Shown: one piece after another, positions 39,269 to 54,048 of the stretch
Layout of the letters: each line of letters starts with the position of its first letter
How positions within the stretch are numbered: the first letter of the stretch is position 1
Assembly (NCBI GenBank): GCA_024399495.1
Contig: JAKSNY010000001.1
Location: forward strand, 1 to 64,000
DNA length: 64,000 bases
From: Paludibacteraceae bacterium
Lineage (GTDB): Bacteria > Bacteroidota > Bacteroidia > Bacteroidales > Paludibacteraceae
Direction: 5' to 3'
The notes under the pieces: generated by a model
The model's database searches: none
What the model was told of the DNA's origin: nothing
Seen by the model: only the letters and a program-made list of their open reading frames with translations
Made by a program: the position numbers and the translations under genes

Positions 39269-40060
39269 TTAAATATCAATAGTAAGCCTGCTCCATTTAC
39301 TCCACAAACCCAAAGAGTCTTTAGCCCTTACATAAATAACATGAGTACCCGATGTCTGGAATGCGTGCTTTACGACATTGAGAGGAGTTGCTATTATATA
39401 TGTACCCTTGATCCCTGCCATGCCCGGATTCAGCACATATTTAGGATTCTCACTATCCTCATAGCCATATTTATCGGTGGTAGTTTCTCCGTCAATAAGA
39501 TACTCGTAAGCCACAACCTCATCTGAATCCGGATCTATAGTTTCTACGGCACTGATAGAATATTCCATTTGTTGGATTAATTCTGTTTTTATAACAGGTA
39601 CAGGAGGATTGTTATCGTAATCTATAACATTTATAACCGCTTCGCCTTTATCTCCATAGTAATCACTTACCACAATTTTAACCATAAATTTAACTACTTT
39701 ATCATTTAGTGTATGTTGTGGCAATATATCTTCTATAACCAATTTTCTTGAATCGTGGTCGAGCGTACATTTAATATATTCGGGTATAGACTGTTCACTA
39801 TACACTTGATATGATACATCTAACCCTGTTTGAATGTAATCATCTGTATAATCAAAATAGATTATTTTTTGTTCTCCATGTCTCAAGATAATTTGAGCAA
39901 CAGATTTTTTAGTGTCAAATTTTCTGCTTTGTGTATTTACATAAACATTTGGAACATCATTGAATTTATGAAATAAATCGTTACGCGTTTCACAAGAAAC
40001 AAGTGTTGCCAATGATATAAAGAACAAATTTGCTCTAAAAATAATATTTGAAACCTTCAT
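39269..40060 (-). CDS. Lipoprotein with PKD/Ig-like C-terminus, last gene of tra-like operon
   Basis: A 263-residue lipoprotein with lipobox LVSC at residues 20-23. The N-terminal half is predicted beta, and the C-terminal half (DPDSDEVVAYEYLIDGE, SGTHVIYVRAKDSLGLWSKW) looks like a PKD or Ig-like fold of the kind used in surface adhesion. I do not recognise a named family. It starts 4 nt after the 1325-residue protein gene and closes the operon. A role in holding or presenting that protein at the cell surface is plausible but unproven. Confidence 0.75.
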   Translation of the reverse strand: MKVSNIIFRANLFFISLATLVSCETRNDLFHKFNDVPNVYVNTQSRKFDTKKSVAQIILRHGEQKIIYFDYTDDYIQTGLDVSYQVYSEQSIPEYIKCTLDHDSRKLVIEDILPQHTLNDKVVKFMVKIVVSDYYGDKGEAVINVIDYDNNPPVPVIKTELIQQMEYSISAVETIDPDSDEVVAYEYLIDGETTTDKYGYEDSENPKYVLNPGMAGIKGTYIIATPLNVVKHAFQTSGTHVIYVRAKDSLGLWSKWSRLTIDI

Positions 40061-40064
40061 ATTC

Positions 40065-43000
40065 CTATTGTTTTATAAGTCTAACCGTTTTACTAATCAT
40101 ATTACCATTATCTTCGGCTTCCAATACCAAAGAAGATACTCCGTCAGGGATATTCTCATAACTTATTATATCAAAATTATCAGATGTATTCATCATCATA
40201 ACTTGTCCTATTGAATTAACAATGGCATAATGGAACATCCCTTTTGAATAATAAATGTTTACGTCCTCCCCCTTTGTTATAGTGGGATAAACCTCAAAAC
40301 CAACTGCAAAACCATCTGAAACCTGAGGTATGAAATCTCTGTCTTCAAAGTGAGAACTCATTGTCGCACTCTTGACTGAAGATGACTGAATATAGATATT
40401 CTCCGCCGTTACCTGAGATTCACACCCAAGTAAGTTTTTAGCAGTAAGTCTTATCTTGTTTTGCCCTGGATTGTAAAGATAACACACCGGATTCTCAATA
40501 TATGATGTTAAACCCTCTACCTCAGAACCTGTAAAATACTGCAATTCCAAATTCCACAGATAATTATCTGCATTCTCACTATTATTGTTCAAAACAAACC
40601 TGGTTCCGCTTTGAAAAGAGAAATTCTCATTAGGATAATCCAATATATTTCTTGTAATTCCATCGGCTGTAATAGAGAAATATGGTTTTACATTTATCAC
40701 CTCTATAGGAATAACCACCGTCTTGGTTTTTGCTCCTGTTATAGTATCCTCTCTATAAACATGTACATCAAAACTTGCACGAGTGTTATATAAACTGCAA
40801 TATTTTTCCATTTCATCGTAAGAAATAACCTTAACCGCAGTATCAGTGGCAGTCCATATAAAACGTGTTGCGTCTTTTATATTTTTAGCAGGGTCATACT
40901 TTGGGACACCTAATGTAACAACAGTGCCTGCACAAGAACCATTGTTATAAACCTCTACATCATCGACCTTTAATTCCTCTATCACATTGATAGTTAAAAT
41001 ATTGCTTGTATCTGACACCTGCGTTGAAATATCATTGCCCACTCTGGAATATACAATTCTTGCCACTTGATATAGACGATCCATTTTCAATGATCCAGCC
41101 TTTAACGATACGTTCTTATTATCATTGCCCGATACCTCCACGTCTGATGTTAATTGTTGCCAAACACCTCCCGCCTCTCTATAAATGTAGTGATATATAT
41201 ATTTATAGTCATTGCTTAGTGACGGAATCCCATATCCGCCTTTTATTACATAACCTTTAATGGATGGGGAATTGGCATTCTCCATAACGTAAACCTCACT
41301 TTTTGAAGCATCTGCAGCCGCTGAAAATGCAATTTTATTATCTTCTATTCCGTCAAAAAAAACAATTTCTATCTTAACGCTATCGCTAAAACATTTTGTT
41401 TTAGTGTTTTGCTTCATTATATAAAAATTCAAGTTAGACGCATCTGAATTTGAGTAAGGCAAAACTGTTGTATTACTATCAGAAAAACCATACCATGCAT
41501 TCTCACTTATATATTTGTTTTTAGCATTGGAGACAATTTGAGCGTTGACGGCATCCTCTTTTACACGGCACCATGCCCTTAAAGCATCTATTCCCGCATT
41601 ATCAACATCTGTACCTGTTTCTGCCGCATAGTCCCAGTTGGCATTTTTCATAAATGATATTATTTTTGTTCTTGACATTGACGAAAAATCTGTTACCGAT
41701 ACGCTTGGCTGTTGATAAGAAACCACACTACGATATAGATAATCAAATACTTTATTCCCTTTCTCAATCAATGAAATGGTAGGTGCTACACCTCGTTGAC
41801 ATAGTAACTTAACTTTATTTTCAGTCTCACTTCTTTCCGCAATCACCACATTTGACGTAACATCATTTAATTCAATAACCTCATCTTCATTTGCAATTAC
41901 ACTCACATCTTTGTAAATGGAATCAGTACACCACGATATCACACACCTGTAGCCTATTGTTTTCCCAGAAAAACTCATTGTGTAAGAATTCGTGTTTGAG
42001 ACTAATTTTCCAACAGTGTCTCCGTGTAATTCATATATTTTATACTCTGCTATCTCCGATAATTGCTCAATGTTGTCAGAACTTACATTAGTGGAGTTTT
42101 TCAATTTAAAAGATATTTTATTCTTTGTAAGTTCATCTCCTTTACACAACCTCTGTTCCAATGGGAACGTCGATGGAGAAAATACCAGATTCTCCTTGTC
42201 TAATATGGGAGTTGGGATATACGTATAATAGTCCTTAGCAATAATTGAAATATAGTATTTATCATCAATCTTGTAGTTATATAATGAACTAAACTCATCA
42301 GAGGCAAAAGACCTTAGTATCACCTTTTGTCTGAATTGTGCCTGAGTCCTGTTTCTTAAAATCGTTGATTTAAGTAAAACATCCTTATCCGGGTCAATCA
42401 CTACAGCAAATTTTAAACGATTCCTATCTATTATATAATTGGAAAAGGTTTTCTTGTCAAGCGGTTCCCAATCTGTGCCGTTAAATGAAACCTCCCACAT
42501 GTAATCCGGATTATACAGGGTTTCTGAATAATTTCCACATTTTATTGCCGCACCTTTTAAATGTATAAAATCCCCCTCTTTGACAAGAGTATCTGTTACG
42601 CAAGTCATTTTAGGTAATTTTTCTGACGCACTGATTGAAGGCAATGTCGCCGCATTTACAACCTCAAATTCAAGAATATTACTTACAACTCCAGCTCCAC
42701 TTGCTATGTCCATATCATAAGTTGGTCCGTAATATATGTATCCTAATGCATAAAAATCTGCATACGTAGAATAATTTTCACTAGAAAAATAACTACTGTA
42801 GATGACCGAATTTTGTATTTTTATTATTGATCCTGCACCATAACCTTTTTTTGCATAAACATCTACATTAGACAAATCTCTTAAATGAAATATTCTACTC
42901 ATTCTATAGTCTTTTGCCTTTGAAACAGAAAAATTTTCTATTGTATTTTCATCATAATTGGTCATATCTGAATCTATTGACCGCTGCAATACATTAGTTC

Positions 43001-44042
43001 TGCGTCTGTAACAATACTCCTTTTTAAGGTAACCCCTTCTTTTTAGAAAGGATTTTTGTTTGGCATTATCATTCACAAATTCAATGGTTGGTTCTGTAAC
43101 GCCATTACACACCTTAGAACACTGTTTATCTATTAGTCCACAACCTGTCCATTGAGAAATTGAACCAATATTAGTGGGAAAATTTGACGCACCGATGGAA
43201 GCCAGATATGCTCCGACACCATAGTTATAGATCAATTTTGTCCCATTTACAATACATTTTTTTTCGGGTAAGTTTATCGTATCCGCTATTACAGAAATCA
43301 CCGCATCCGGATTATTATATATTAAATATACATCACCCGAACCTGTGTTATACATAGGGTTAAATGACCCATTGACATTTATTAAAGAATTAGTGGACGA
43401 GGGAAAAATTTTAAATTTAGCCTGTGCTCCTGTGTTTGCATTCTCAATGGAAACCCGTTGCTCCTTAACATATTTTTTTGTTTCCGTAGGATCATAACCG
43501 GAACCACAAATATCCACTACCGGCTCCACAAGAAAAGAATACTCCACTTTTAATTTGTACTCATTATTGGAAGACAGCTTACTTATGTCCGCCGCAATGG
43601 AATCATTGAACTCAATTGAACATGCCTGATACGTACCACCCACTACGGTATAACTTGAAGGAGTGGAAACGCTTCTCACATCAATATAGCCACTTTTTTT
43701 AAGTGACGAAAACTCATAATAAGTGTTGTTTGAGACAAGTGAATAATACACTTTTCTTTCATATTTTATTTCATTTACAGTCCAATATCCACATACTTCA
43801 TTTGGAATCATTGCAGATCGAACAAAAAAATTATACCACGATAATTCTGTTGATACTGTACAATCTAATTTCCCATTAGTAATCAATTGTTTTTCTATAG
43901 TAATACATGAGTTGGAAACAACAGGCATTTTTTCCATATATGAACTCATATCAAATAGTGCGTTACCCCACCAGTAATTAAAAGCAAAAGAAACATTTGA
44001 TACTATTAATAATGTGCTTATTACAGATAAAATTTTTTTCAT
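40065..44042 (-). CDS. Large secreted protein with type IX-like sorting domain
   Basis: A 1325-residue exported protein with signal peptide (MKKILSVISTLLIVSNVSFAF). The chain is mostly beta. A PKD-like unit lies near residues 1150-1240 (NPVCYLYNPGQNKIRLTAKN). The last 75 residues, from VYPTITKGEDVNIYYSKGM through IVNSIGQVMMMNT to KTVRLIKQ, have the layout of a type A C-terminal domain recognised by the type IX secretion system. Cysteine pairs near 300-345 (CGLIDKQCSKVC) suggest disulfides. No enzyme domain was recognised. It lies 8 nt downstream of the barrel gene in the tra-like operon. A giant adhesin or appendage component is the best guess. Confidence 0.78.
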   Translation of the reverse strand: MKKILSVISTLLIVSNVSFAFNYWWGNALFDMSSYMEKMPVVSNSCITIEKQLITNGKLDCTVSTELSWYNFFVRSAMIPNEVCGYWTVNEIKYERKVYYSLVSNNTYYEFSSLKKSGYIDVRSVSTPSSYTVVGGTYQACSIEFNDSIAADISKLSSNNEYKLKVEYSFLVEPVVDICGSGYDPTETKKYVKEQRVSIENANTGAQAKFKIFPSSTNSLINVNGSFNPMYNTGSGDVYLIYNNPDAVISVIADTINLPEKKCIVNGTKLIYNYGVGAYLASIGASNFPTNIGSISQWTGCGLIDKQCSKVCNGVTEPTIEFVNDNAKQKSFLKRRGYLKKEYCYRRRTNVLQRSIDSDMTNYDENTIENFSVSKAKDYRMSRIFHLRDLSNVDVYAKKGYGAGSIIKIQNSVIYSSYFSSENYSTYADFYALGYIYYGPTYDMDIASGAGVVSNILEFEVVNAATLPSISASEKLPKMTCVTDTLVKEGDFIHLKGAAIKCGNYSETLYNPDYMWEVSFNGTDWEPLDKKTFSNYIIDRNRLKFAVVIDPDKDVLLKSTILRNRTQAQFRQKVILRSFASDEFSSLYNYKIDDKYYISIIAKDYYTYIPTPILDKENLVFSPSTFPLEQRLCKGDELTKNKISFKLKNSTNVSSDNIEQLSEIAEYKIYELHGDTVGKLVSNTNSYTMSFSGKTIGYRCVISWCTDSIYKDVSVIANEDEVIELNDVTSNVVIAERSETENKVKLLCQRGVAPTISLIEKGNKVFDYLYRSVVSYQQPSVSVTDFSSMSRTKIISFMKNANWDYAAETGTDVDNAGIDALRAWCRVKEDAVNAQIVSNAKNKYISENAWYGFSDSNTTVLPYSNSDASNLNFYIMKQNTKTKCFSDSVKIEIVFFDGIEDNKIAFSAAADASKSEVYVMENANSPSIKGYVIKGGYGIPSLSNDYKYIYHYIYREAGGVWQQLTSDVEVSGNDNKNVSLKAGSLKMDRLYQVARIVYSRVGNDISTQVSDTSNILTINVIEELKVDDVEVYNNGSCAGTVVTLGVPKYDPAKNIKDATRFIWTATDTAVKVISYDEMEKYCSLYNTRASFDVHVYREDTITGAKTKTVVIPIEVINVKPYFSITADGITRNILDYPNENFSFQSGTRFVLNNNSENADNYLWNLELQYFTGSEVEGLTSYIENPVCYLYNPGQNKIRLTAKNLLGCESQVTAENIYIQSSSVKSATMSSHFEDRDFIPQVSDGFAVGFEVYPTITKGEDVNIYYSKGMFHYAIVNSIGQVMMMNTSDNFDIISYENIPDGVSSLVLEAEDNGNMISKTVRLIKQ

Positions 44043-44050
44043 AATCCATA

Positions 44051-44596
44051 TTATTTAATGTTATACTTGATACCTAAAGAGAACAGAGGATGAAAATAGT
44101 TGTATCCCCCACTCCTATAAAAACCCCAATCCCAGCCTTGCTGTGCCTGTAGTACAAATGAAAGTTGCGGGATTGCGTAAAATTCAAAATTCACGCCCAA
44201 GTCAAGTCCCATTACAAATCCCGATGTGGTTTTGTCAATATCCTTGTTTCTCCAATCATCATAACCTAAATTCATATCTCCTGACAGATGAAGATAAAAC
44301 CACGAAACCGGATGCCAGACACTGCACTCAACACCAGGATAAACCTTTATTCCCCAAAAATCTGCATTTTTGAATTTACCTTTTTCAAAATCCACATTTA
44401 CAAGGAATGACCATCTTTTAGAAAAATGGTATTGATACAGCACCCCCACATCAAATGTCTGACCTAAGCCTGTTCCTGCTCTAAACCCTATGGCATTCAT
44501 ACCTTTGATATGCGATATCGCTGATTCAGCGTATGCAGGAGATACACAGGAAACCATAATCGTCGCCAATACAGAATAAAATAAAACCTTTCTCAT
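44051..44596 (-). CDS. Small outer-membrane beta-barrel protein, possible TraO
   Basis: A 181-residue protein with signal peptide (residues 1-23, ending PAYA) and eight to ten amphipathic strands to the C-terminus (IGFRAGTGLGQTFDVGVLYQ, VMGLDLGVNFEFYAIPQLSF), ending in YNIK. The size, position after traN and barrel pattern fit TraO, the outer-membrane protein of Bacteroides conjugative transposons. Similarity at residue level is too weak for me to be sure. The gap to the traN-like gene is 15 nt. Confidence 0.65.
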   Translation of the reverse strand: MRKVLFYSVLATIMVSCVSPAYAESAISHIKGMNAIGFRAGTGLGQTFDVGVLYQYHFSKRWSFLVNVDFEKGKFKNADFWGIKVYPGVECSVWHPVSWFYLHLSGDMNLGYDDWRNKDIDKTTSGFVMGLDLGVNFEFYAIPQLSFVLQAQQGWDWGFYRSGGYNYFHPLFSLGIKYNIK

Positions 44597-44611
44597 ATAA
44601 AATAATATTAG

Positions 44612-45709
44612 TTAATATAATGCTTTTGCCTTCAGCAACTCTTTGTCCGAAACAGGAAACGAAAGATGCCTACCCCCGTTTTTCTCGAACATTTCAAAGT
44701 AGAGAATTCTGCTGGGAGGTATGGTGAATCTTGAAAAAAACATTACAATAGATTCCGCCTCTCCTCCTTTAAGAATAGCAGGAGACACACTTTTAGAGAA
44801 ATAAACATAAACAGGATTTAACTCCTCCTCTTGAATTGCCGTAGTTTTAGTCTCTTTTTTATCTTTAATATAACCCTTTAGAAAATCCATTTCATACTCA
44901 ATTTTACCATAATTCTGAATATCAAATCTAAATGCAAGCATATCATTGTAGGCATATATTCCAGACATCGCAAAAACCATTTTAGACCTGATTACTCCGA
45001 TATCGTTCAGCGACGGTTTTTCACCAACAAGTTTTTTGGCAAAAGAGTTCATCTGCTTATCATTTACGGAATTGTTTCTAAAAATGGCTTGCGACGACTG
45101 TTCTTCATCCTCATCTGACGACAGTCGCACAGACAGTCTGTCAGGAAGAGAATCAGGTTTTACAATGAAGGTATAGATATATCCGGTCTCTGTAATAAAG
45201 TGAATGTTTGTTTCTGCAAAATCTGTTTCAATCGCTTTTGCCTTAATAATGTTGTCTATTTTATCAGCGTATGCCGCTATTACGGAATTACTTCCCAATA
45301 CAATGTCAGTAATTTTTTCTCCACATATAAAATGTGTTGTTTTTTCAGAAGAAAACCCGATGGAATCGGTAGAAAATGATTCTCCCTCCTGTTGCCATAC
45401 ATATTTTTCCAAATTCTGCGAATAGACGACATTAAATTGATGATACCCACCGTCTGATGTTACTATAGAAATGGTTGATTCGGAAAAATCCGGCTTGGAA
45501 CTCTGCAATTTTAACATTTTATCCGACGACAGCCTTTCCCCTATAATGGCACTGCTGCCAAAATCAACATATTTTATATCACTTGAGAATTTGAGTACTA
45601 CACAATGAGTGTCGTTCAATTGTAATTTTTCTGATTCATCTGCATATACGTGATTCATTGACACTATAATAGCAGAAATAGCAAACATATAAAATTTAAG
45701 ATTCTTCAT
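44612..45709 (-). CDS. traN: TraN/DUF4138-like conjugation protein with duplicated N-terminal module
   Basis: A 365-residue exported protein (signal peptide MKNLKFYMFAISAIIVSMNHVYA). TraN is the VirB9-like outer-membrane-complex protein of Bacteroides conjugation systems. Its beta module appears twice here: YVDFGSSAIIGER ... TISIVTSDGGYHQFNVVYS at about residues 46-108, and DIVLGSNSVIAAY ... NIHFITETGYIYTFIVKPD at about 135-195. The C-terminal half (MNSFAKKLVGEKPSLNDIGV onward) matches the DUF4138 region. Family members usually show the first module once, as far as I know. The start overlaps the traM-like stop by 4 nt. Confidence 0.82.
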   Translation of the reverse strand: MKNLKFYMFAISAIIVSMNHVYADESEKLQLNDTHCVVLKFSSDIKYVDFGSSAIIGERLSSDKMLKLQSSKPDFSESTISIVTSDGGYHQFNVVYSQNLEKYVWQQEGESFSTDSIGFSSEKTTHFICGEKITDIVLGSNSVIAAYADKIDNIIKAKAIETDFAETNIHFITETGYIYTFIVKPDSLPDRLSVRLSSDEDEEQSSQAIFRNNSVNDKQMNSFAKKLVGEKPSLNDIGVIRSKMVFAMSGIYAYNDMLAFRFDIQNYGKIEYEMDFLKGYIKDKKETKTTAIQEEELNPVYVYFSKSVSPAILKGGEAESIVMFFSRFTIPPSRILYFEMFEKNGGRHLSFPVSDKELLKAKALY

Positions 45710-46773
45710 TTTATTCGTTTTATTGTTACTAAATAGTTTGATGAAATGGATATTTTTGATTCTTTTATCGATCCTTGCACCGCATTTTTAATTACATCGC
45801 CTATAGAAGAAATGGTGGAATTTATCACCTTGCTTTTAGAGCCTGTCTTAATATCTACACCCCCTAACGCCGCCGATGCGGCTTTAGATTTTGTGTCACT
45901 GACAATATTATCCGGGACATATATCCCCTCAAATCCATCACTATCGTAAACAGTCCCCTTAAACAGAAGAATTTTATTTCTATAGTTTATGTTCTGTATT
46001 TTAATTATTCCTCTTCCGTTTCCAAAAGTCAGTTTCCCGTAAACAAATGTGTTTTTGGGAACATTAACGCCATCTATTTCAAGAGTTTCAATTAGTCTTA
46101 ATTTTATTATAGCACCTGATTTAAGGTTTTTTTGATCCCCATGGACAACCGCTTTTACATCACCTTCAAAATTATCGGTATTCGACTCTAACCCATAAAA
46201 TCCTCCAACCCCTGACCTGCTATTGCTTGTGACATTATCACTAGAAGCCATCTCCACTTTTTGATCCTTCACCATTACATCATCTTCGTTAGGAGTCTCA
46301 TATTTAGTATATCCGTAATCAGAAAGGTTGATTCCCAATTCTTTTTCCAATTGAGCCCGCTTTTTTTTCATAATCTCCCTTTTTCTTTCGTATTTATTCT
46401 CCGTTTTACGCTTTTTTTCGTCCATACTGATGCTGGATGACATACAAGTTTTGTAGTTTGGACTTTGAGATGTTTTGCGGGCTCCATCGGATTCAGGTAT
46501 TGTATCGTGTTGTAAAATGCTAAATGAGTGCTTTTGCATCATATCTCTGTGATTTTGTTCTTGATTGCGTATCTCCTCCCTTTTTTCAGCGGCAAATCTG
46601 TCTGCCGCCAAATCCTCCTCTTTAGAATCTGGTATATCCATATTTATATCATACGATTTCCCCATTGCATTGATATCTGACTGCGTTCCGCCACCCAATA
46701 CATAATATGTAACTATTACCAGTATCAATGCAAATACCGAATAGATATGAAGGGATTTCTGTTTTCTGCCCAT
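45706..46773 (-). CDS. traM: TraM conjugation protein (VirB10-like)
   Basis: A 355-residue bitopic protein: one hydrophobic segment at residues 8-26, a long charged periplasmic linker rich in K and E (residues 45-170), and a C-terminal beta domain starting near 205 (AVVHGDQKNLKSGAIIKLRL, VNVPKNTFVYGKLTFGNGRG, DSDGFEGIYVPDNIV). These segments match TraM of Bacteroides conjugative transposons, which corresponds to VirB10 and links the inner and outer membranes. It lies 1 nt from traL and overlaps traN by 4 nt. Confidence 0.9.
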   Translation of the reverse strand: MGRKQKSLHIYSVFALILVIVTYYVLGGGTQSDINAMGKSYDINMDIPDSKEEDLAADRFAAEKREEIRNQEQNHRDMMQKHSFSILQHDTIPESDGARKTSQSPNYKTCMSSSISMDEKKRKTENKYERKREIMKKKRAQLEKELGINLSDYGYTKYETPNEDDVMVKDQKVEMASSDNVTSNSRSGVGGFYGLESNTDNFEGDVKAVVHGDQKNLKSGAIIKLRLIETLEIDGVNVPKNTFVYGKLTFGNGRGIIKIQNINYRNKILLFKGTVYDSDGFEGIYVPDNIVSDTKSKAASAALGGVDIKTGSKSKVINSTISSIGDVIKNAVQGSIKESKISISSNYLVTIKRIK

Positions 46774-46774
46774 A

Positions 46775-46969
46775 TTAAATTTTATCTATAAGTTTAAAAT
46801 ACGCCATCATTGTTTGCGTTATAAGTACTGTCAAGCAAACAACAAATGTCACTATTAATGCACGCTTCCTTTTTGAGGTATTCATTTCATTCAAGTAAAA
46901 ACTGAATCTGTCACTTATGCTCTTGATTATAAGAGCAATGCGTTTTCTATAATACTCCGTTTTGTTCAT
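46775..46969 (-). CDS. traL: TraL-like small membrane protein
   Basis: A 64-residue protein with a basic N-terminus (YYRKRIALIIKSISDRF) and one hydrophobic segment at about residues 39-58. Size and position between traK and traM match TraL (DUF3989) of Bacteroides conjugation clusters, an inner-membrane component of unclear role. The start codon overlaps the traK stop by 1 nt. Confidence 0.75.
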   Translation of the reverse strand: MNKTEYYRKRIALIIKSISDRFSFYLNEMNTSKRKRALIVTFVVCLTVLITQTMMAYFKLIDKI

Positions 46970-47589
46970 TACTTATTAACTACAGATAAATCGCTATTAT
47001 CCAATATTTTCCATTTTTCTATAACAAATCCATGTGGATTATTGTCAGACCTTGCACACGATATTAACTCGCACTGTGTTTCCAAGTTCCTATAAGTTAT
47101 GTTTGAACTTCTTACTATTGCAGTTTTACCATAATAGTAAGCCATAAATGGGTAAACATTTGTATCCACAATAACACTGTCGGTTTGTATTTCACAATTG
47201 ATTCCCGCAGCAATAACCCTATCATAAAATCCGTCTTCTTTTAAATTCTTATACTGCTCGTATGCCTCATTGCCCGCTAACGCCAATGCTTGTATAAGCC
47301 TCTGCTCTATAGCACTTTTATCAGGTGATATGGTAAAAAAATACTCGTGAAACAATTTTACATGTGCTCTTGCCTCCGCTGGTCTGTTCTGATTCACATC
47401 TTGTTGTAATGCCATAAGCAATGATGCCCCTCCATCTAATACATATATTTTTTCTCTCTGTTTTTCTGCAAACTGGAATGATTTCCATACTGCATACCCG
47501 GATACAGCAACAGTTATAACAGTCACAAGTACCATATATATTCTCACAAGAGAAAATGCCGACTGAATATTTTGTAAACTTCTAATCAT
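46969..47589 (-). CDS. traK: TraK conjugation protein (VirB8-like)
   Basis: A 206-residue inner-membrane protein with one transmembrane segment at residues 16-36 and a periplasmic domain. The segment AEARAHVKLFHEYFFTISPD and the conserved FMAYYYGKTAIVRSSNITYRN ending match TraK of Bacteroides conjugative transposons, the counterpart of VirB8 that nucleates the channel. Overlaps of 4 nt with traJ and 1 nt with traL show tight translational coupling. Confidence 0.92.
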   Translation of the reverse strand: MIRSLQNIQSAFSLVRIYMVLVTVITVAVSGYAVWKSFQFAEKQREKIYVLDGGASLLMALQQDVNQNRPAEARAHVKLFHEYFFTISPDKSAIEQRLIQALALAGNEAYEQYKNLKEDGFYDRVIAAGINCEIQTDSVIVDTNVYPFMAYYYGKTAIVRSSNITYRNLETQCELISCARSDNNPHGFVIEKWKILDNSDLSVVNK

Positions 47590-48698
47590 ATCTGCTTATC
47601 AGTTGAATTTTGTTGTACATGCGACTGTGATTGTTGATTATTCCCAAATCCAAATTTTGAAGCAATCTGATTCACTCCCTCTGCATCACCTATTTTGGTT
47701 GCCACCAATCCGCCTCCTACACTAAATGCCGCCGCAAGCCCTCCTGAACCGTCTCCACGCAATATCCAATTTGCAAAAGCAGGCACATGAGAATACAACA
47801 TAATTGATATTATACCTAATAACATTCCGCAAATCTGTACCATAATTGTGTTACTGTCTATGGAAACCAATGTGGATTCCGCCGTGGATTGATCTATTAT
47901 AGCCTGCATTGATGATGTTCCCGGAGCATACAGACACTCGCTTACTATCATTGTTTGTACAAACCCTATAATGTTACAAATAGGAATATACAGGCTGATA
48001 TTTATGTATTGGGCAACCCAAGCCTTAAAGTTCTTTTCAAAACCAGGTATCACAGAAAGCGCTAAAGCAAACGGACCTATCAATACCAAAACTATTTTGG
48101 CTGTCACCACATATACTTTATAAAAATAAACAGTCGCCATAGTAAATATATCTACAGTCATACTGCCTAAATCCACTAAGAATTTAAAGATTGTATCAGA
48201 CAAACTACCTACAGAATTAACAATATTATCCTTTATCTCACCAATATTCTTGCTGATAGTACGCCAAACACTCAATTTCTCTTCAGAAGCTTTTGATTTG
48301 GCTTGTGCCTGTGCCTGCAACTCTCTCATCTTTTTCTGCGTCTCAAAATATTCTGCATACGAGGATTCCATTTTATCAGAAGCGGACTCTTTTACAAATT
48401 CCGTAGCTACTTCTATTGGTTTTACAAGAGCGTCTAAAACCTTGGTGAAACCTGTAAAAAATATAATTACCAACCCTATGGCAAAAGGTCTTAACATGCT
48501 GTAAAAATCTATTGATTCTCCTTTTGCCCAAGATTTCCAAAGCTTTGACCCTATATATAGCAAAGCGGCAATACCACATATCAATTGTGCGGTGGAAGAA
48601 AGCATATCGGCATACTTAACAGCAGTTGAATATACTTTATCCAGCCCCTGCGTAACCAATTCTCCAAGATTTTGCACTATTTCTAATGAATAATTCAT
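47586..48698 (-). CDS. traJ: TraJ conjugation protein (VirB6/TrbL-like)
   Basis: A 370-residue polytopic inner-membrane protein with five to seven hydrophobic segments (AQLICGIAALLYIGSKLW, FAIGLVIIFFTGFTKVLDAL, VVTAKIVLVLIGPFALALSV). This TrbL/VirB6-like protein forms part of the inner-membrane channel. A charged helix with SSYAEYFETQKKMRELQAQA near residue 105-135 is typical of the family. It lies 11 nt after the TraI-like gene. Confidence 0.9.
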   Translation of the reverse strand: MNYSLEIVQNLGELVTQGLDKVYSTAVKYADMLSSTAQLICGIAALLYIGSKLWKSWAKGESIDFYSMLRPFAIGLVIIFFTGFTKVLDALVKPIEVATEFVKESASDKMESSYAEYFETQKKMRELQAQAQAKSKASEEKLSVWRTISKNIGEIKDNIVNSVGSLSDTIFKFLVDLGSMTVDIFTMATVYFYKVYVVTAKIVLVLIGPFALALSVIPGFEKNFKAWVAQYINISLYIPICNIIGFVQTMIVSECLYAPGTSSMQAIIDQSTAESTLVSIDSNTIMVQICGMLLGIISIMLYSHVPAFANWILRGDGSGGLAAAFSVGGGLVATKIGDAEGVNQIASKFGFGNNQQSQSHVQQNSTDKQI

Positions 48699-48709
48699 AA
48701 ATTATTGAT

Positions 48710-49333
48710 TTAAAATGAGAATGTCATCGCTTGAATCTTCAAGTTCTCCATACCGTTTTTAATTCCGTCAGAAGCCACTTTAGATAAACTAAGCTCGTAC
48801 GTCTTATCTATTGCATCCTCCAATGCCAACACTTCATCTTCAATTTTTGTTAAAATCTCTATTCTCTCATAATCAGACAAATCTGCGTCATTTTCACCGT
48901 TTTTTGCCATTTCCACTCCATTTTTTATACGTTCAGCGGCAGCGGTTCCCAAATTCATAATTGAGGCTATTATATTTAGTTTCTCTGTCATTGACAACTC
49001 ATCAATTTGGTTGATTCTGTTGATATATTTGTCCATTTTATCGGCAATTCTTATCTCTGCTTCCGTAATCTCCACCACCTGTCGTGAAGCCTTTACAAAT
49101 TCACTTACCTTTCTTAATTTTTCTGCAGATGCTTTTGTAAGTTCGAACAACTTACTCATATTTTCTGCATTATCCGCAATGTCCATACTTTGAGATATCG
49201 CCTCTTCCATTTCTTCAAAAAACAAAGCTATCCTTTGTGCCATTGAGGTGGGGTCTGTTACCACCGCCTGCGGAACAGCCGTGTTCCAAAAGGCAAGCAA
49301 TAAAAGTGATATGTAAAACTTTTTCATACTCAT
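48710..49333 (-). CDS. TraI/DUF4141-like conjugation protein (VirB5-like)
   Basis: A 207-residue exported protein with signal peptide (SMKKFYISLLLLAFWNTAVP) and an all-helical body, consistent with DUF4141 (TraI of Bacteroides conjugative transposons), similar in layout to VirB5, which lies at the pilus tip. ADKMDKYINRINQIDELSMTE in the middle is the family-like stretch. The name TraI here refers to the Bacteroides scheme and not to an F-type relaxase. The start overlaps the TraG stop by 4 nt. Confidence 0.85.
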   Translation of the reverse strand: MSMKKFYISLLLLAFWNTAVPQAVVTDPTSMAQRIALFFEEMEEAISQSMDIADNAENMSKLFELTKASAEKLRKVSEFVKASRQVVEITEAEIRIADKMDKYINRINQIDELSMTEKLNIIASIMNLGTAAAERIKNGVEMAKNGENDADLSDYERIEILTKIEDEVLALEDAIDKTYELSLSKVASDGIKNGMENLKIQAMTFSF

Positions 49334-51816
49334 TGATTTGTTAAACTTTTAATCGCCTCTATGTAACTGCCAACCTCTCTCTCTTTTTGAAGGACAGTCT
49401 CCTTCTCTTTTTTCTCTGTAGTATAAGTCAAATATTCCTCTTTAGAGACCTCCACGCCATACACAGATGTCAGATTCCCATTTAGTGTTATAAAAACTTC
49501 TTTATATGGTGCTCTACCATCAGTTTTTATATCCTTGTTTATTGACAGTGCTATTGCTGTCTCTTTTTCACTCAACGCAAGAATCTGTTTTATTTCATCA
49601 AATCTGTTGGCATATTTGCGTTGGTCAAGCAATATCTTGCAATCTGCGTTTGAGATAATAGTGTTCTTTATAATTTCATTCCCAACAATGTCATCAACCT
49701 CCTGCGTAACTACAATCGCCTCTCCAAAATGTTTCCTGACAGTTTTATATAAATATTTTATGAACTGTGCCGTACCACTCTTTGATATAGCCTTCCATGC
49801 CTCTTCTATCAATATCATTTTTCTCTCCATTGCAAGTGAGGGATGCCTCATCTTGGATATAAAGGTATCCATCAACATCAGCGTAACCACTGGAAACAGA
49901 GTTTTATGGTCTTTGATACTATCTATTTCAAACACTATGAAACGTTTGTCCAATAAATCGGCATTTTCTGTTGCATTAAGTAAAAAATGGTACATTCCAC
50001 CGATGTAATAAGGGCTCAGCACCTGAAGCAGATTGTCTAAATCAAAACTATATTTATCAACCCCTTTTAATGTCAGATACTCTCTATATTGTTTATCCAA
50101 ATAGGCAAAAAATGTATCAAAGCAAGGGAACTCTCCACTTGGCAAAATATAGTCTATATAATTACTTATCGCCACAGAAATATGGGTTTCTTCCGCCTTT
50201 GTTATACACTCGCTCTCGTTTTTCCAAAGACAAAATATCAAAGATGCCAACTGTTCTCGTTTTTCTACCGTATAATTGCCGTCCGCTACGTAAAAAGGAT
50301 TGAACGATATAGGATTCTCTTCTGAATACTGGAGATAAACACCATCTTTGCTATTAGTTGTTTCCTGTATCATTTTTGTCAAACCTTGGTAACTGTCGCC
50401 AACATCGACAATTACCACATGAGAACCTTGTTCGTAGTACTGCCTGACCATGTGATTTGTAAAAAATGACTTCCCTGTTCCTGAGGGACCAAGTATAAAT
50501 TTGTTCCTATTATCAGTCCAACCCTTTTGTCTTGGATAATCTGATATGTCTATATTAAGCGGTTTGCCAAATATTCTGTCGCATAAACGTATGCCAAAAT
50601 CCTTTCCTATTGATTCAATATTGCTCTCGTTATAGATAAAACAGCACGCCTGCTCTAAAAATGTGAGAAATGTCATCTCTGATGGGAATTGTGATGCCGC
50701 ACCAGGTATTCCGCCCCAGAATATCTGTGGCACTATACCTTGTGTTTTTGATACGGTACAGTCCATATTTGCAAGCACAGAACCTGTTTTGGTGTTCTTT
50801 TTTAGTAACCGCTGATAGTTGGTATCCCATATAAGTATGTTTGCCGCCACTTTTACGCACCTTCTGGCATTGATTACACTCTCATTAAGATACATATCAT
50901 TGAACTCCTTATTTATAGCATTCTCCCTTGAAATTTTTGATAGCGACTGTTGTTCCCTTCCTCTGCGTTCTATCGCTTTTATCGTGTCTTTATGCGACAC
51001 TAAAAAAAAATACTGATTGTATATATGGTTAAATGGCAAATCAAAACCCAAGGAGTGTGTATAGCCTATTGGAAAACTTGTACTTTCTGACGACAATTTA
51101 TCGTGAATTTTGTGTGTGAAAACTTCGGAGGGTAGTTGGTCCAAATCTGAAATTGAGAAACAGCTCAAATAATTATCGCCTACCTTTGTGTCCATCTCAT
51201 TGCAAGTTATATCACATAATGCATAACCCGATAATTTACCCAATGACAACGTAAGGTACTGCTCAATTACTCCATACTCAGCCGCAGTTCCCAACATCTC
51301 CTTTTCACTAACCCTCCTTATGCCTATTCCGTTCTCTTCCAACACACCGCAAAAACGACTTACACAATCAGAAAATGATTTAATTATAGCGGGATTTAAA
51401 ACGTCCTCACAGATTAAATTACCAGCACAGAGTGCCGAAAATTGGCTGGTAGTTGAAATATTTTTTGCAGATGATTTGGTAAGATATAGGAAACAGCAAT
51501 GCCTGATGGATTTTCTTCCACTAAAATGATTGTCAGAAGCAGTACTGAGAAATGTTTTTTCACTAGATAAGTCAGCCTTAAACTCATCTGTGAAAAACCA
51601 ATCCTGTTTGTGAACAATAGAATTGTCTGGCAAACATTTAAGTGCCCTTACCCAAGTTTGATGCAATTGTTCAAAATTCTCTTTCCCTAAAGAATATACC
51701 TGCGGCATGCTTAAACAAAATGGCACCGTTATGTCCGCTGTCTTGCTGATAAGGCAGCCATCCTCCCAACATAACAGAGGCAGACACTTCTCAATATCTT
51801 TGGACTTTATTTTCAT
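49330..51816 (-). CDS. traG: TraG conjugation ATPase (VirB4-like)
   Basis: An 828-residue cytoplasmic motor ATPase of the VirB4 class (called TraG in Bacteroides elements; it is not the coupling protein). Walker A is ILGPSGTGKSFFTNHM near residue 455. Walker B is KMILIEEAWKAI near 670, with VVTQEVDDIVGNEIIKNTII following. The N-terminal half carries the DUF3875-type region (LPLLCWEDGCLISKTADITV). It powers assembly of the channel. The length is normal and the reading frame intact, so it is probably functional. It overlaps traF and the TraI-like gene by 4 nt each. Confidence 0.95.
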   Translation of the reverse strand: MKIKSKDIEKCLPLLCWEDGCLISKTADITVPFCLSMPQVYSLGKENFEQLHQTWVRALKCLPDNSIVHKQDWFFTDEFKADLSSEKTFLSTASDNHFSGRKSIRHCCFLYLTKSSAKNISTTSQFSALCAGNLICEDVLNPAIIKSFSDCVSRFCGVLEENGIGIRRVSEKEMLGTAAEYGVIEQYLTLSLGKLSGYALCDITCNEMDTKVGDNYLSCFSISDLDQLPSEVFTHKIHDKLSSESTSFPIGYTHSLGFDLPFNHIYNQYFFLVSHKDTIKAIERRGREQQSLSKISRENAINKEFNDMYLNESVINARRCVKVAANILIWDTNYQRLLKKNTKTGSVLANMDCTVSKTQGIVPQIFWGGIPGAASQFPSEMTFLTFLEQACCFIYNESNIESIGKDFGIRLCDRIFGKPLNIDISDYPRQKGWTDNRNKFILGPSGTGKSFFTNHMVRQYYEQGSHVVIVDVGDSYQGLTKMIQETTNSKDGVYLQYSEENPISFNPFYVADGNYTVEKREQLASLIFCLWKNESECITKAEETHISVAISNYIDYILPSGEFPCFDTFFAYLDKQYREYLTLKGVDKYSFDLDNLLQVLSPYYIGGMYHFLLNATENADLLDKRFIVFEIDSIKDHKTLFPVVTLMLMDTFISKMRHPSLAMERKMILIEEAWKAISKSGTAQFIKYLYKTVRKHFGEAIVVTQEVDDIVGNEIIKNTIISNADCKILLDQRKYANRFDEIKQILALSEKETAIALSINKDIKTDGRAPYKEVFITLNGNLTSVYGVEVSKEEYLTYTTEKKEKETVLQKEREVGSYIEAIKSLTNQ

Positions 51817-52124
51817 TTAGTTCCAATTATTCTGTGTATTCTTCTATGGATTGCAATCCTTTTTGGCAAGGCCCTGGAGGCATATAATTGGACCAACCCT
51901 TTTTCTCCGAATTTATTATTTAAATAAAAGCACACTGACACGTTTATGACAAGGCAGAAAACCGCCACAATTACAGATGGCACTTGACCTACGATAAACG
52001 ATAGTATGAAAAACACCACAAACGCAGCCACTATGCCTATCACGGCATATATAAAGTACTGAGCCCTGAGACCTTTCACCTCTACCGATTTCCCTACCCC
52101 CTTATTTACCTGATACCTTGCCAT
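51813..52124 (-). CDS. traF: TraF/DUF4133 conjugation protein (VirB3-like)
   Basis: A 103-residue inner-membrane protein with two hydrophobic segments. The start at 52124 (MARYQVNKGVGKSVEVKG) matches homologues; a longer in-frame reading would overlap traE by far and is rejected. VNKGVGKSVEVKGLRAQYF is the hallmark N-terminus of TraF. Family counterpart is VirB3. It follows the traE stop by 11 nt and overlaps traG by 4 nt. Confidence 0.92.
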   Translation of the reverse strand: MARYQVNKGVGKSVEVKGLRAQYFIYAVIGIVAAFVVFFILSFIVGQVPSVIVAVFCLVINVSVCFYLNNKFGEKGLVQLYASRALPKRIAIHRRIHRIIGTK

Positions 52125-52135
52125 ATTAAATATGC

Positions 52136-52438
52136 TTATGAGCCTAAGAAAAACGCACGGATAGCGGTTACCGCTATAACTGCAAATACGCAACTTCCAA
52201 ACCAAGACGCGGCGGTACGGGTTGTGTCAGGACTGCCCGATGACCACTTGCCATACACCTTTACGGCACCTATAAACCCTACAACCGCACATATTACATA
52301 AAACAGTGTGGTAATAGGTTCAATGTAGGATTGAATCTCAGAATTTGCCTTTTCTATAGCGGCAACTCCATTCCCTTGAGCCAGTGCCACAATAGATGAA
52401 AATGTGGCTGACAATAAGAAAACTAATCTCTTTTTCAT
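52136..52438 (-). CDS. traE: TraE/DUF4134 conjugation protein (VirB2-like pilin)
   Basis: A 100-residue protein with a signal peptide ending ALAQG and two hydrophobic helices (TTLFYVICAVVGFIGAVKVY, SWFGSCVFAVIAVTAIRAFF). The segment KVYGKWSSGSPDTTRTAASWF between them is the family hallmark. TraE is the pilin-like subunit. It lies 11 nt after the 62-residue gene and 11 nt before traF. Confidence 0.93.
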   Translation of the reverse strand: MKKRLVFLLSATFSSIVALAQGNGVAAIEKANSEIQSYIEPITTLFYVICAVVGFIGAVKVYGKWSSGSPDTTRTAASWFGSCVFAVIAVTAIRAFFLGS

Positions 52439-52449
52439 ATCTGATATTT

Positions 52450-52638
52450 TTAAAATGGTATATCATCTGAAATGTCATCATCTTCGAATTCGGACTGACG
52501 TCTTAACTCCTCTTCTCTCTCCTTATCGGAATTTGAAAAATAACGGAACCATACATATACCGAAATGTTAAAAAATGTAAATATAATAAGTACTACACAT
52601 AAGAATAAATGTATATTAATATATTGCAATCCGAACAT
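52450..52638 (-). CDS. Small membrane protein at the head of the tra-like operon
   Basis: A 62-residue protein with one hydrophobic segment (residues 8-30) and an acidic cytoplasmic tail (EREEELRRQSEFEDDDISDD). I do not recognise it from the known tra gene sets. Its start is next to a palindromic promoter region and traE follows after 11 nt, so it is the first gene of the operon. It could tune assembly or act as a regulator of the motor. Confidence 0.7.
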   Translation of the reverse strand: MFGLQYINIHLFLCVVLIIFTFFNISVYVWFRYFSNSDKEREEELRRQSEFEDDDISDDIPF

Positions 52639-52645
52639 AAAAAAA

Positions 52646-52681
52646 CGTTACTTTGTATTTGTATGACACTGCAAAGTAACG
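52646..52681 (-). promoter_or_regulatory. Palindrome over the probable tra-like operon promoter
   Basis: A perfect 10-bp inverted repeat, cgttactttg (52646-52655) and its complement caaagtaacg (52672-52681), flanks 16 bases. Read on the minus strand the right arm gives TTACTTTG, a 7 of 8 match to TAnnTTTG. The repeat would place an operator on the promoter of the tra-like operon. Confidence 0.5.
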
Positions 52682-52741: not shown

Positions 52742-52786
52742 AAAATCACTGTAATCATCAGTTACAAAATTATAACTGATGATTAC
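52742..52786 (-). terminator. Terminator after spmAB
   Basis: A perfect 13-bp inverted repeat, gtaatcatcagtt (52751-52763) and aactgatgattac (52774-52786), is followed on the minus strand by a T-rich run. It lies 30 nt after the spmAB stop and separates that transcript from the tra-like operon. Confidence 0.8.
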
Positions 52787-52815
52787 AAAAAGGTTTAATC
52801 AAATGTTAAAAAATG

Positions 52816-54048
52816 TTAAAAAAAGAAGAGGTAAGCAACAAAAATTGCGGCAATTACACCCATTAAATCTGCAAAAAGTCCGGCACCGATGGCGTATCTT
52901 GTCTTTTTTACGCCCACAGAACCAAAATACAGGGCTATAATATAGAAGGTGGTATCGGCTGCTCCCTGGAACAGACAGCTAAGTCTGCCGGCAAAGGAAT
53001 CGGGTCCGAAGGTTTTCATACACTCAACCATCATAGCCTTGGCACCGCTACCACTTAGTGGCTTCATAAAGGCTGTTGGCATAGCATCAACCCACTCTGT
53101 ACGCTCTGTAAAGAGACCGCAAACCCAAGCAAGTCCGTCTGTAATGAATCCTAATGCACCAGACGCTCTGAAAACGGCTATGCCCACAAGTGTGCCCACC
53201 ATATATGGTATTATCTTTACCGATGTTTCAAAACCGCCTTTGGCACCCTCAATAAAGGCTTCAAACACATTGACTTTCTTTACTAAGGCTCCGGCTATAA
53301 AGCCTACCATTATAATAAGAAGTATTCCGTTACTTATTATATTGGTTGCAAGTGTCATGCCCTCACGGCTAAGGGTTGAGAGCCACCAGCACATTCCGCC
53401 TATCAAGGCTGAAAGTCCGAGAAGCCACCCCATCACCGTCCAGTTAAGCAAATTAAGACGTTGCTTTATTCCTACAAAAATAATAGCTGAAAGTGTGGAG
53501 ACGTATGTTGATATTAGAAGTGGAACAAACACATCAGTAGGGTTTGCCGCACCCAAGATGGCTCTTTGGGCAAGTATGGCAACGGGTATTATTGTAAGCC
53601 CCGATGTATTGAGAGCAAGGAACATTATCTGTGCGTTTGAAGCCGTATCCTTTTTAGGATTCAAATCCTGCAGACTCTGCATTGCCTTTAGTCCAAGCGG
53701 AGTGGCGGCATTGTCAAGACCAAGCAGATTTGCACTGAAGTTCATAACCAACTGACCGCTTGCAGGGTGACCTTTGGGAATTTCAGGGAACAGTTTTGAG
53801 AAAAACGGACCCACAACCCTTGACATCACGTTTATGGCTCCTGCCTTCTCACCTATATTCATAAGACCTAACCATAATGTCATTACACCACATAGCGGAA
53901 GTGCTATGCTCATAACAGAAAACTCCGCCATCTCAAATGTTGAGTTAACCATATCGCCAAGTATGGCGGTATTACCCATAAAAATGGCTTGTGCGGCACC
54001 CACTATAAGTGCCACAATAAAAAACCCCGCCCAAATGTAGTTAAACAT
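52816..54048 (-). CDS. Fused SpmA-SpmB nucleoside-recognition membrane protein
   Basis: A 410-residue inner-membrane protein with about eleven hydrophobic segments. The N-terminal half (FSVMSIALPLCGVMTLWLGL, FSANLLGLDNAATPLG) is SpmA-like. The C-terminal half (IPYMVGTLVGIAVFRASGAL, LSGSGAKAMMVECM) is SpmB-like. Both halves carry the gate domain of nucleoside-transport-related proteins. In spore formers they are separate and act in maturation. The fused form is usual in non-sporulating Bacteroidota, where its role is unknown. It lies 4 nt from ybeY. Confidence 0.9.
   Translation of the reverse strand: MFNYIWAGFFIVALIVGAAQAIFMGNTAILGDMVNSTFEMAEFSVMSIALPLCGVMTLWLGLMNIGEKAGAINVMSRVVGPFFSKLFPEIPKGHPASGQLVMNFSANLLGLDNAATPLGLKAMQSLQDLNPKKDTASNAQIMFLALNTSGLTIIPVAILAQRAILGAANPTDVFVPLLISTYVSTLSAIIFVGIKQRLNLLNWTVMGWLLGLSALIGGMCWWLSTLSREGMTLATNIISNGILLIIMVGFIAGALVKKVNVFEAFIEGAKGGFETSVKIIPYMVGTLVGIAVFRASGALGFITDGLAWVCGLFTERTEWVDAMPTAFMKPLSGSGAKAMMVECMKTFGPDSFAGRLSCLFQGAADTTFYIIALYFGSVGVKKTRYAIGAGLFADLMGVIAAIFVAYLFFF

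Follow-up and report, generated by a model that had tools for sequence, protein, structure and literature searches.

Type IV secretion systems (T4SSs) without the coupling ATPase VirD4 have been explained by three models, namely two-step protein export (Bordetella Ptl), DNA uptake (Helicobacter pylori ComB) and adhesive pili (Bartonella Trw), according to the sections cited here of a 2025 review whose main text contains no word beginning with 'Bacteroid' (PMC12857230). Among diderm mating-pair formation (MPF) types, the relevant passages of a 2016 survey give protein-secreting T4SSs as known in types I and T only (PMC4793230). In this paper we describe a locus of the Bacteroidota type (MPF-B) within a window of 64,000 nucleotides, positions 1 to 64,000 of the forward strand of contig JAKSNY010000001.1 (GCA_024399495.1, Paludibacteraceae bacterium); a literature search of titles and abstract openings, with subscription papers and preprints outside it, returned no account of this system. 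Judged from its sequence, the interval 39269-52638 encodes an MPF-B channel, a 1,325-aa predicted secreted protein and a lipoprotein. We put about half of our confidence in reading the locus as a T4SS that has been domesticated and is non-conjugative, is equipped with a surface module, and most probably serves for contact or adhesion.

An initial annotation of the window had reported thirteen co-oriented T4SS genes with intact frames, and the open reading frame (ORF) list confirms each of the thirteen as an unbroken minus-strand frame. The MPF-B assignment follows from a TIGR03783 TraG with TraJ, K, M and N as ordered neighbours. Both the Walker A motif (GPSGTGKS) and the motif ILIEEAW are intact in this TraG. 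In order of transcription, and with T9SS standing for type IX secretion system, the genes are:

52450..52638, minus strand: small protein of 62 aa, first gene of the operon; one transmembrane segment predicted by eye; C-terminus DDIPF
52136..52438, minus strand: traE, VirB2-like; PF13572 (DUF4134); 74-90% identity to orthologues in the genus
51813..52124, minus strand: traF, VirB3-like; PF13571 (DUF4133); the scan used an upstream start
49330..51816, minus strand: traG, VirB4-like ATPase of 828 aa; TIGR03783, 931 bits
48710..49333, minus strand: traI, VirB5-like, rapidly evolving; weak PF13605 match, E 0.002
47586..48698, minus strand: traJ, VirB6-like membrane protein; TIGR03782, E 2e-31, under its cut-off
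46969..47589, minus strand: traK, VirB8-like; TIGR03781, E 3e-79
46775..46969, minus strand: traL-like small protein of 64 aa, named from position and size only
45706..46773, minus strand: traM, VirB10-like; PF12508, E 1e-30, over the Pfam cut-off and under the NCBIfam cut-off
44612..45709, minus strand: traN, VirB9-like; TIGR03780, E 4e-68
44051..44596, minus strand: traO, putative outer-membrane beta-barrel; PF10626 (E 4e-5, just under cut-off) and PF13505 (under cut-off)
40065..44042, minus strand: large surface protein of 1,325 aa; signal peptide by eye; T9SS type-A sorting domain assigned via orthologues
39269..40060, minus strand: lipoprotein of 263 aa; lipobox cysteine C23

The large protein and the lipoprotein of the window had no Pfam match of their own.

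The initial annotation saw no relaxase, coupling ATPase, integrase or replication gene in the window. Model searches agreed for the first three; replication genes were sought by eye in the ORF lists, and none was seen. The genome-wide search that it had proposed found neither a PF03432 relaxase nor a PF02534 coupling protein in the assembly of the window (2.08 Mb, 26 contigs, 82.5% complete), where TraG is single-copy. Two PF00589 recombinases are present on contigs C24 and C25 and none on the contig of the window, C1, for which serine recombinases were judged by eye only. Because a draft genome may miss genes, the comparison was extended to 16 genomes of the genus, which matching contig coordinates identify as the holder of 'Candidatus Enterocola intestinipullorum'. 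TraG was found in 15 of these, one gene each, although in G064 it is in two pieces on two contigs and in G131 it is truncated at a contig end. PF02534 matched in none of the 16, nor did a coupling protein of a sister genus used as query, a search run without a positive control. A PF03432 relaxase was found in G082 only, as a 251-aa frame truncated where its 5.9-kb contig ends; a tblastn search of that contig returned no tra gene. The five genomes that are at least 90% complete gave TraG in 5/5, a coupling protein in 0/5 and a relaxase in 1/5. As a control we took the 34 TraG-bearing genomes outside the genus from the same 200-genome sample of the family and cross-read the searches; PF02534 matched in 29 (all but G005, G054, G103, G120 and G147) and PF03432 in 23. 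A relaxase and coupling ATPase elsewhere on the same element, which had been named as one outcome that would speak against domestication, were not seen, with the relaxase frame of G082 as a reservation.

The position of the cluster in the chromosome is largely conserved. We compared 16 loci, from the 15 TraG-bearing genomes and from the metagenome-assembled genome ADurb.Bin234, whose place in the genus comes from the TraG tree. In the window the cluster is flanked by rnhB and spmAB (the names of flanking genes, including dprA, clpP, envC and others, were assigned by eye), and in 12 of the 16 loci the operon begins beside spmAB, which is co-oriented with the tra genes in six and opposed in six. 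In one sub-clade, clade B, three of the four loci (L013, L014, and L073 with L074) have clpP-clpX-recQ on one side of the channel and envC-dut on the other; in the fourth, L012, the contig ends too soon for the neighbours of the channel to be judged. Since the genes downstream of the lipoprotein in G040, G123, G082 and G145 of clade A include homologues of rnr, dut, TPR and envC of the window, clade B seems to keep part of the ancestral neighbourhood.

Shared descent is also suggested by the trees. TraG of the genus forms one side of a branch with SH-aLRT 97, beside TraG of other genomes of the family, in a quick tree drawn with midpoint rooting. A core tree (mnmG+ybeY+uvrC+apt) and a tree of eight tra proteins, ten genomes each, agree on G040+G123, G082+ADurb, G145+G096 and the set {window, G141, G040, G123}. 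Trees of the channel and of the surface module for 13 genomes agree on window+G137, G007+G141, G040+G123 and clade B. We read this as descent probably held in common for the most part, accompanied by recombination. In the comparison of the window with G137, dN/dS is 0.025-0.111 for the 10 cluster genes, out of 11, that have a finite dS (traN is saturated, and dS is near saturation throughout the cluster), which points to purifying selection. Walker A is present in all 16 TraG sequences and EEAW in all 14 that are long enough. Among plasmid records, 3,916 matched TraG, all at less than 60% identity and the best listed at 45-46%. The domestication by the chromosome that had been proposed at the outset is thus well supported: the site is for the most part conserved, 15 of 16 genomes retain the cluster, selection on it is purifying, and no linked relaxase or coupling protein was found.

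What was added to the channel is a surface module of TraO, the large protein and the lipoprotein. Searches detected the gene of the large protein in 14 of the 16 genomes, the two others being G157, which has no TraG, and G131, where TraG is cut by the contig end. All three genes follow traN directly in 9 of the 14; in G096 the module is about 6 kb from the channel, and in G107, G064, G153 and G149 it occupies a separate site with the three genes still together. In clade B the operon is split over two sites, traO being the first gene of the separate module, and both halves are retained. This retention is the best evidence for a joint function of channel and module.

The large protein is predicted to travel by another route than the T4SS. 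Of 10 large-protein tails scanned, 6 matched TIGR04183 with an E value no higher than 1, 3 of them over its cut-off, and PF18962 matched in 2 of 12 members; the best match of the tail in PDB is 7pzj, the tail of a lipase. The T9SS translocon SprA is present in 16/16 genomes. A signal peptide, seen by eye, and a type-A sorting tail in a host with a T9SS suggest that the large protein is T9SS cargo. When its profile was run over 393 genomes of the order, 200 matched; apart from the window, every match listed starts at column 1,120 of 1,334 or later, with almost all of them confined to the last 80-140 columns, a generic tail. Because that set apparently holds one genome of the genus and few of the family, the lack of matches to the body of the protein is uninformative on the sister genera. 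The lipobox cysteine of the lipoprotein is invariant in 14/14 aligned sequences, of which 7 have PKD matches, and its profile gave weak matches only against PDB (best E 0.01). The large protein had at first been offered as either cargo or surface partner of the channel. We rejected it as T4SS cargo because the T9SS tail of its orthologues implies export by another machine. Its co-inheritance with the channel supports the other role, and a surface partner appears the likelier of the two.

Beyond the genus, profiles of the large protein and the lipoprotein showed that three genomes from two sister genera, g6 and g27, have both genes next to the channel. In G005 (g6) the lipoprotein and a 3,424-aa protein come after traN and no TraO was seen; in G120 (g27) TraO, lipoprotein and a 3,455-aa protein are followed by traE onward; in G151 (g27) TraO, lipoprotein and a 3,433-aa protein are followed by a few other genes and then traE. 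Over some 3,400 aa these three large proteins are co-linear and 27-34% identical, and by BLAST they share with that of the window a 140-210-residue block and a C-terminal stretch of 110-230. In a fourth genome, G147 (g27), a gene for the large protein lies upstream of traE and continues past the end of the examined stretch. Neither PF02534 nor PF03432 matched in G005, G120 and G147, and G151 has a PF02534 match and no PF03432. No module match was found in the examined stretch of G037 (g5), and no lipoprotein or large-protein match in about 10 kb or less on each side of 18 control TraG loci (L015-L025, L027, L028, L065, L071, L075, L076, L078). In another family of Bacteroidales, G291 encodes a PKD protein with a T9SS tail and a lipoprotein of weak similarity (E 1.5e-14); a PF02534 coupling protein, a TraJ-like gene and a DNA methyltransferase-like gene named by eye are close by (L120 1-20000). 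The coupling protein and TraJ-like gene near this pair are a hint that pairs of this kind may originally have been mating-pair adhesins.

The cluster is, as found, a chromosomal VirB channel set without VirD4, which places it with the VirD4-less non-conjugative T4SSs; of the marks of a conjugative element, the searches made found neither linked relaxase nor coupling protein nor an integrase or replication module on the element. Because no coupling ATPase was found that would load cytoplasmic substrates, and because the sole conserved addition is a surface module, we favour contact or adhesion. The channel would span the envelope, TraE and TraI forming a pilus or pseudopilus moved by TraG, with TraM, TraN, TraO and the lipoprotein as the outer-membrane part. 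The T9SS would place the large protein on the cell surface, and the large protein, lipoprotein and TraO would cap or surround the T4SS exit and bind other cells or surfaces. Contact or adhesion would then be by a TraG-driven pilus, as proposed for Bartonella Trw, and a substrate encountered in the periplasm might pass as well.

Several observations weigh against this reading as a whole. The contact or adhesion role is suggested by the parts and by analogy with Trw, which has several sequence-variable VirB2 and VirB5 genes (PMC12857230, in the part cited), whereas here a single traE is among the most conserved genes. The genomes of the genus are draft assemblies, 78-100% complete. Frequent gain and loss of the locus among close strains, with attachment-site duplications, was the other outcome held out at first as contrary evidence; at the level of the genus no such pattern was seen, with the reservation that G157 (85% complete) has no detected TraG. 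Transfer genes were sought with PF03432, PF02534 and one coupling protein of a sister genus, other relaxase classes being outside the search. The tail of the large protein in the window itself gave no match in an NCBIfam scan at E up to 1. No module match was found near the channel in 10 of the 13 g27 genomes read (G027, G054, G074, G091, G103, G113, G128, G139, G159 and G162). The large-protein gene is split in 2 of 14 genomes, lying in two frames in G040 (L099 5106-9015) and G153 (L086 1785-5825), probably from assembly error or phase variation.

The trees, too, are in part contrary. The nearest relative of the window is G141 (100/100) in the core tree, whereas the tra tree puts G141 with G040+G123 (91/94); these two trees also disagree, with weak support, on G115 and G131. 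Of the channel and module trees, one puts G145 with G096 and the other puts it with clade B, both well supported, and there are further conflicts on G115, on G082 and within clade B. Between the window and G137, dS is 1.1-2.4 in the cluster versus 0.46-0.87 for rdxA, rnhB and spmAB. As the dS of the cluster exceeds that of its flanks and the trees conflict, exchange by recombination is likely. The spmAB genes of the window (52816-54048) are 99% identical to those of G137, G007 and G141 (L002, L003, L006), while TraG is 69-88% identical; this difference suggests local recombination.

Among the other explanations, ComB-like DNA uptake, in which a retracting pseudopilus would bring DNA into the periplasm and ComEC would take it across the inner membrane, is possible but in our judgement unlikely. 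The subunit set is near that given for ComB, with equivalents of VirB2, 3, 4, 6, 8, 9 and 10 and no VirD4 (PMC12857230, in its section on that system). VirB11 is absent from the cluster, judged by eye from the ORF list; ComEC (PF03772) is found in 12 of the 16 genomes, and dprA was recognised by eye in the window. In six close species the first small protein ends in two acidic residues, I or L, and PF, which resembles the C-terminal tail of single-stranded DNA-binding protein (SSB), a docking site of DNA-processing proteins. Over 15 loci of the genus (without L073), however, this ending occurs in 6, SLPF without acidic residues in 3 of clade B, and neither in 6. ComEC was not found in 4 of the 15 TraG-bearing genomes, including G096 (96% complete), is present in G157 without TraG, and matched in 10 of 14 control genomes and so is not specific. 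TraI, a weak VirB5-like assignment, is present here and ComB has no VirB5. The proximity of dprA, about 11 kb away, had been noted with the caution that it might be chance. As evidence it proved weak. The dprA gene of clade B is some 5 kb from the surface module and not from the channel, for which reason we discarded a functional meaning and regard the proximity as uninformative on DNA uptake; it would fit a shared old gene order.

Ptl-like two-step export, by which Sec-exported periplasmic proteins would leave through the channel, perhaps into contacted cells, seems to us similarly doubtful. T4SSs without VirD4 can export from the periplasm (PMC12857230; PMC4793230, in the passages concerned), and chromosomal T4SSs without a relaxase (MOBless) have been argued, in the cited part of PMC3158045, often to be protein exporters. 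No conserved candidate substrate was seen beside the operon, however, where both additional genes encode proteins with signals for the surface, a T9SS tail and a lipobox; unlinked substrates were not sought. TraI is kept here, and Ptl has no VirB5 (PMC12857230, same section).

In a composite T4SS-T9SS machine, the conjugation channel would have become a permanent part of the envelope, with the T9SS-delivered large protein as its outer tip or receptor; such a machine would be present in three genera of Paludibacteraceae and act as an outer-membrane organelle of DNA uptake or contact. We offer this with low confidence. To our knowledge no gene has been assigned to an organelle of this kind in Bacteroidota.

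A remnant of an integrative and conjugative element (ICE), or a T4SS serving mobilisable elements in trans, is very improbable. The genes are homologous to conjugation genes of Bacteroidota, and T4SSs can serve elements in trans. Against this stand the retention in 15 of 16 genomes, low dN/dS, intact Walker motifs, a contig without integrase, a relaxase in one genome, a coupling protein in none, and TraG under 60% identity in all matching plasmid records. Retention, the missing coupling protein and contig integrase, the single relaxase and the plasmid identities also led us to reject a mobile element. Least probable of all is functional conjugation with a relaxase and coupling protein of families outside our limited search, as the models used match both proteins in most of the other TraG-bearing genomes and the flanks of the cluster are, by eye, core genes.

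Two sequence features were noted upstream of the cluster:

52749..52788, minus strand: terminator-like hairpin after spmAB, 18 pairs with a T tail
52671..52680, minus strand: promoter-like box GTTACTTTGC upstream of the operon

Both arms of the hairpin appear, by eye and uncounted, to covary across six species. The box was named from the Bacteroidota -7 consensus, and its GTTACTTTG is invariant in 6/6 species aligned. The hairpin after spmAB and the invariant GTTACTTTG suggest that the 13-gene cluster is its own transcription unit. A 10-bp inverted repeat around the box of the window is not conserved in the other five species, and an Rfam scan at gathering scores matched a tRNA alone.

Other T4SS loci of the family were seen in the same comparison. 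A second lineage in g27 (L059-L064, L066, L067, L093-L095) has a duplicated traK and a coupling ATPase that resembles MobC and is about 890 aa long; the ATPase gene adjoins hutH/fabG-like genes in L095 and comes directly after traN in L093. Relaxases occur in few of its species, and it may be a coupling-protein-dependent domesticated T4SS. A second TraG type in g27 marks another T4SS (L109, L110, L111, L069, L077); among its genomes, neither PF02534 nor PF03432 matched in G054, G103, G120 and G147, and both matched in G159. The traG of G005 has an in-frame stop (L068 9903-12479) and the traJ of G054 is split (L069 8114-9218); if assembly errors are not the cause, some sister species may be losing the channel by decay. 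In G121, a locus like that of a conjugative transposon (L078 10556-16484) has four genes between traG and traI, several with lipoprotein-like starts.

If the preferred reading is true, a vertically inherited MPF-B channel with a T9SS-dependent partner would add a lineage of domesticated T4SS and tie two secretion systems into one apparatus. Uncultured gut bacteria would then have kept a conjugation channel as a permanent chromosomal machine, apparently recycled for contact, export or DNA uptake. Since g27 represents another state, with a coupling protein in many genomes and a relaxase in few, stages of domestication can be compared, and the gene set gives a concrete basis for tests of contact, adhesion and DNA uptake in gut Bacteroidota.

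Compared with the Bacteroides-type conjugative transposon (MPF-B, mobB/mobC), TraE to TraO are homologous and in the same order, and TraG, TraK and TraN exceed the NCBIfam cut-offs. Unlike that element, the locus was found with no MobB relaxase, no MobC coupling protein and no integrase on the contig, and it has a largely fixed chromosomal site, a T9SS-tailed protein and a PKD-type lipoprotein. With Bartonella Trw, which is proposed to act via adhesive pili, it shares a VirB set without VirD4, a likeness seen here in the genes; the description of Trw in the cited part of PMC12857230 includes no T9SS partner, whereas a T9SS-tailed protein is present here. Helicobacter pylori ComB likewise has no VirD4 and a single VirB4 ATPase (PMC12857230, section cited), but TraI and the surface module set the present locus apart. 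Bordetella Ptl also lacks VirD4 (PMC12857230, section cited); unlike Ptl, the locus has TraI and no linked Sec-exported substrate was seen beside it. The MOBless T4SSs of Guglielmini et al. 2011 are, in the part of that paper considered here, similarly chromosomal and without a nearby relaxase (PMC3158045), and where that part infers function in bulk, a single MPF-B lineage is here followed through a genus together with its partner module.

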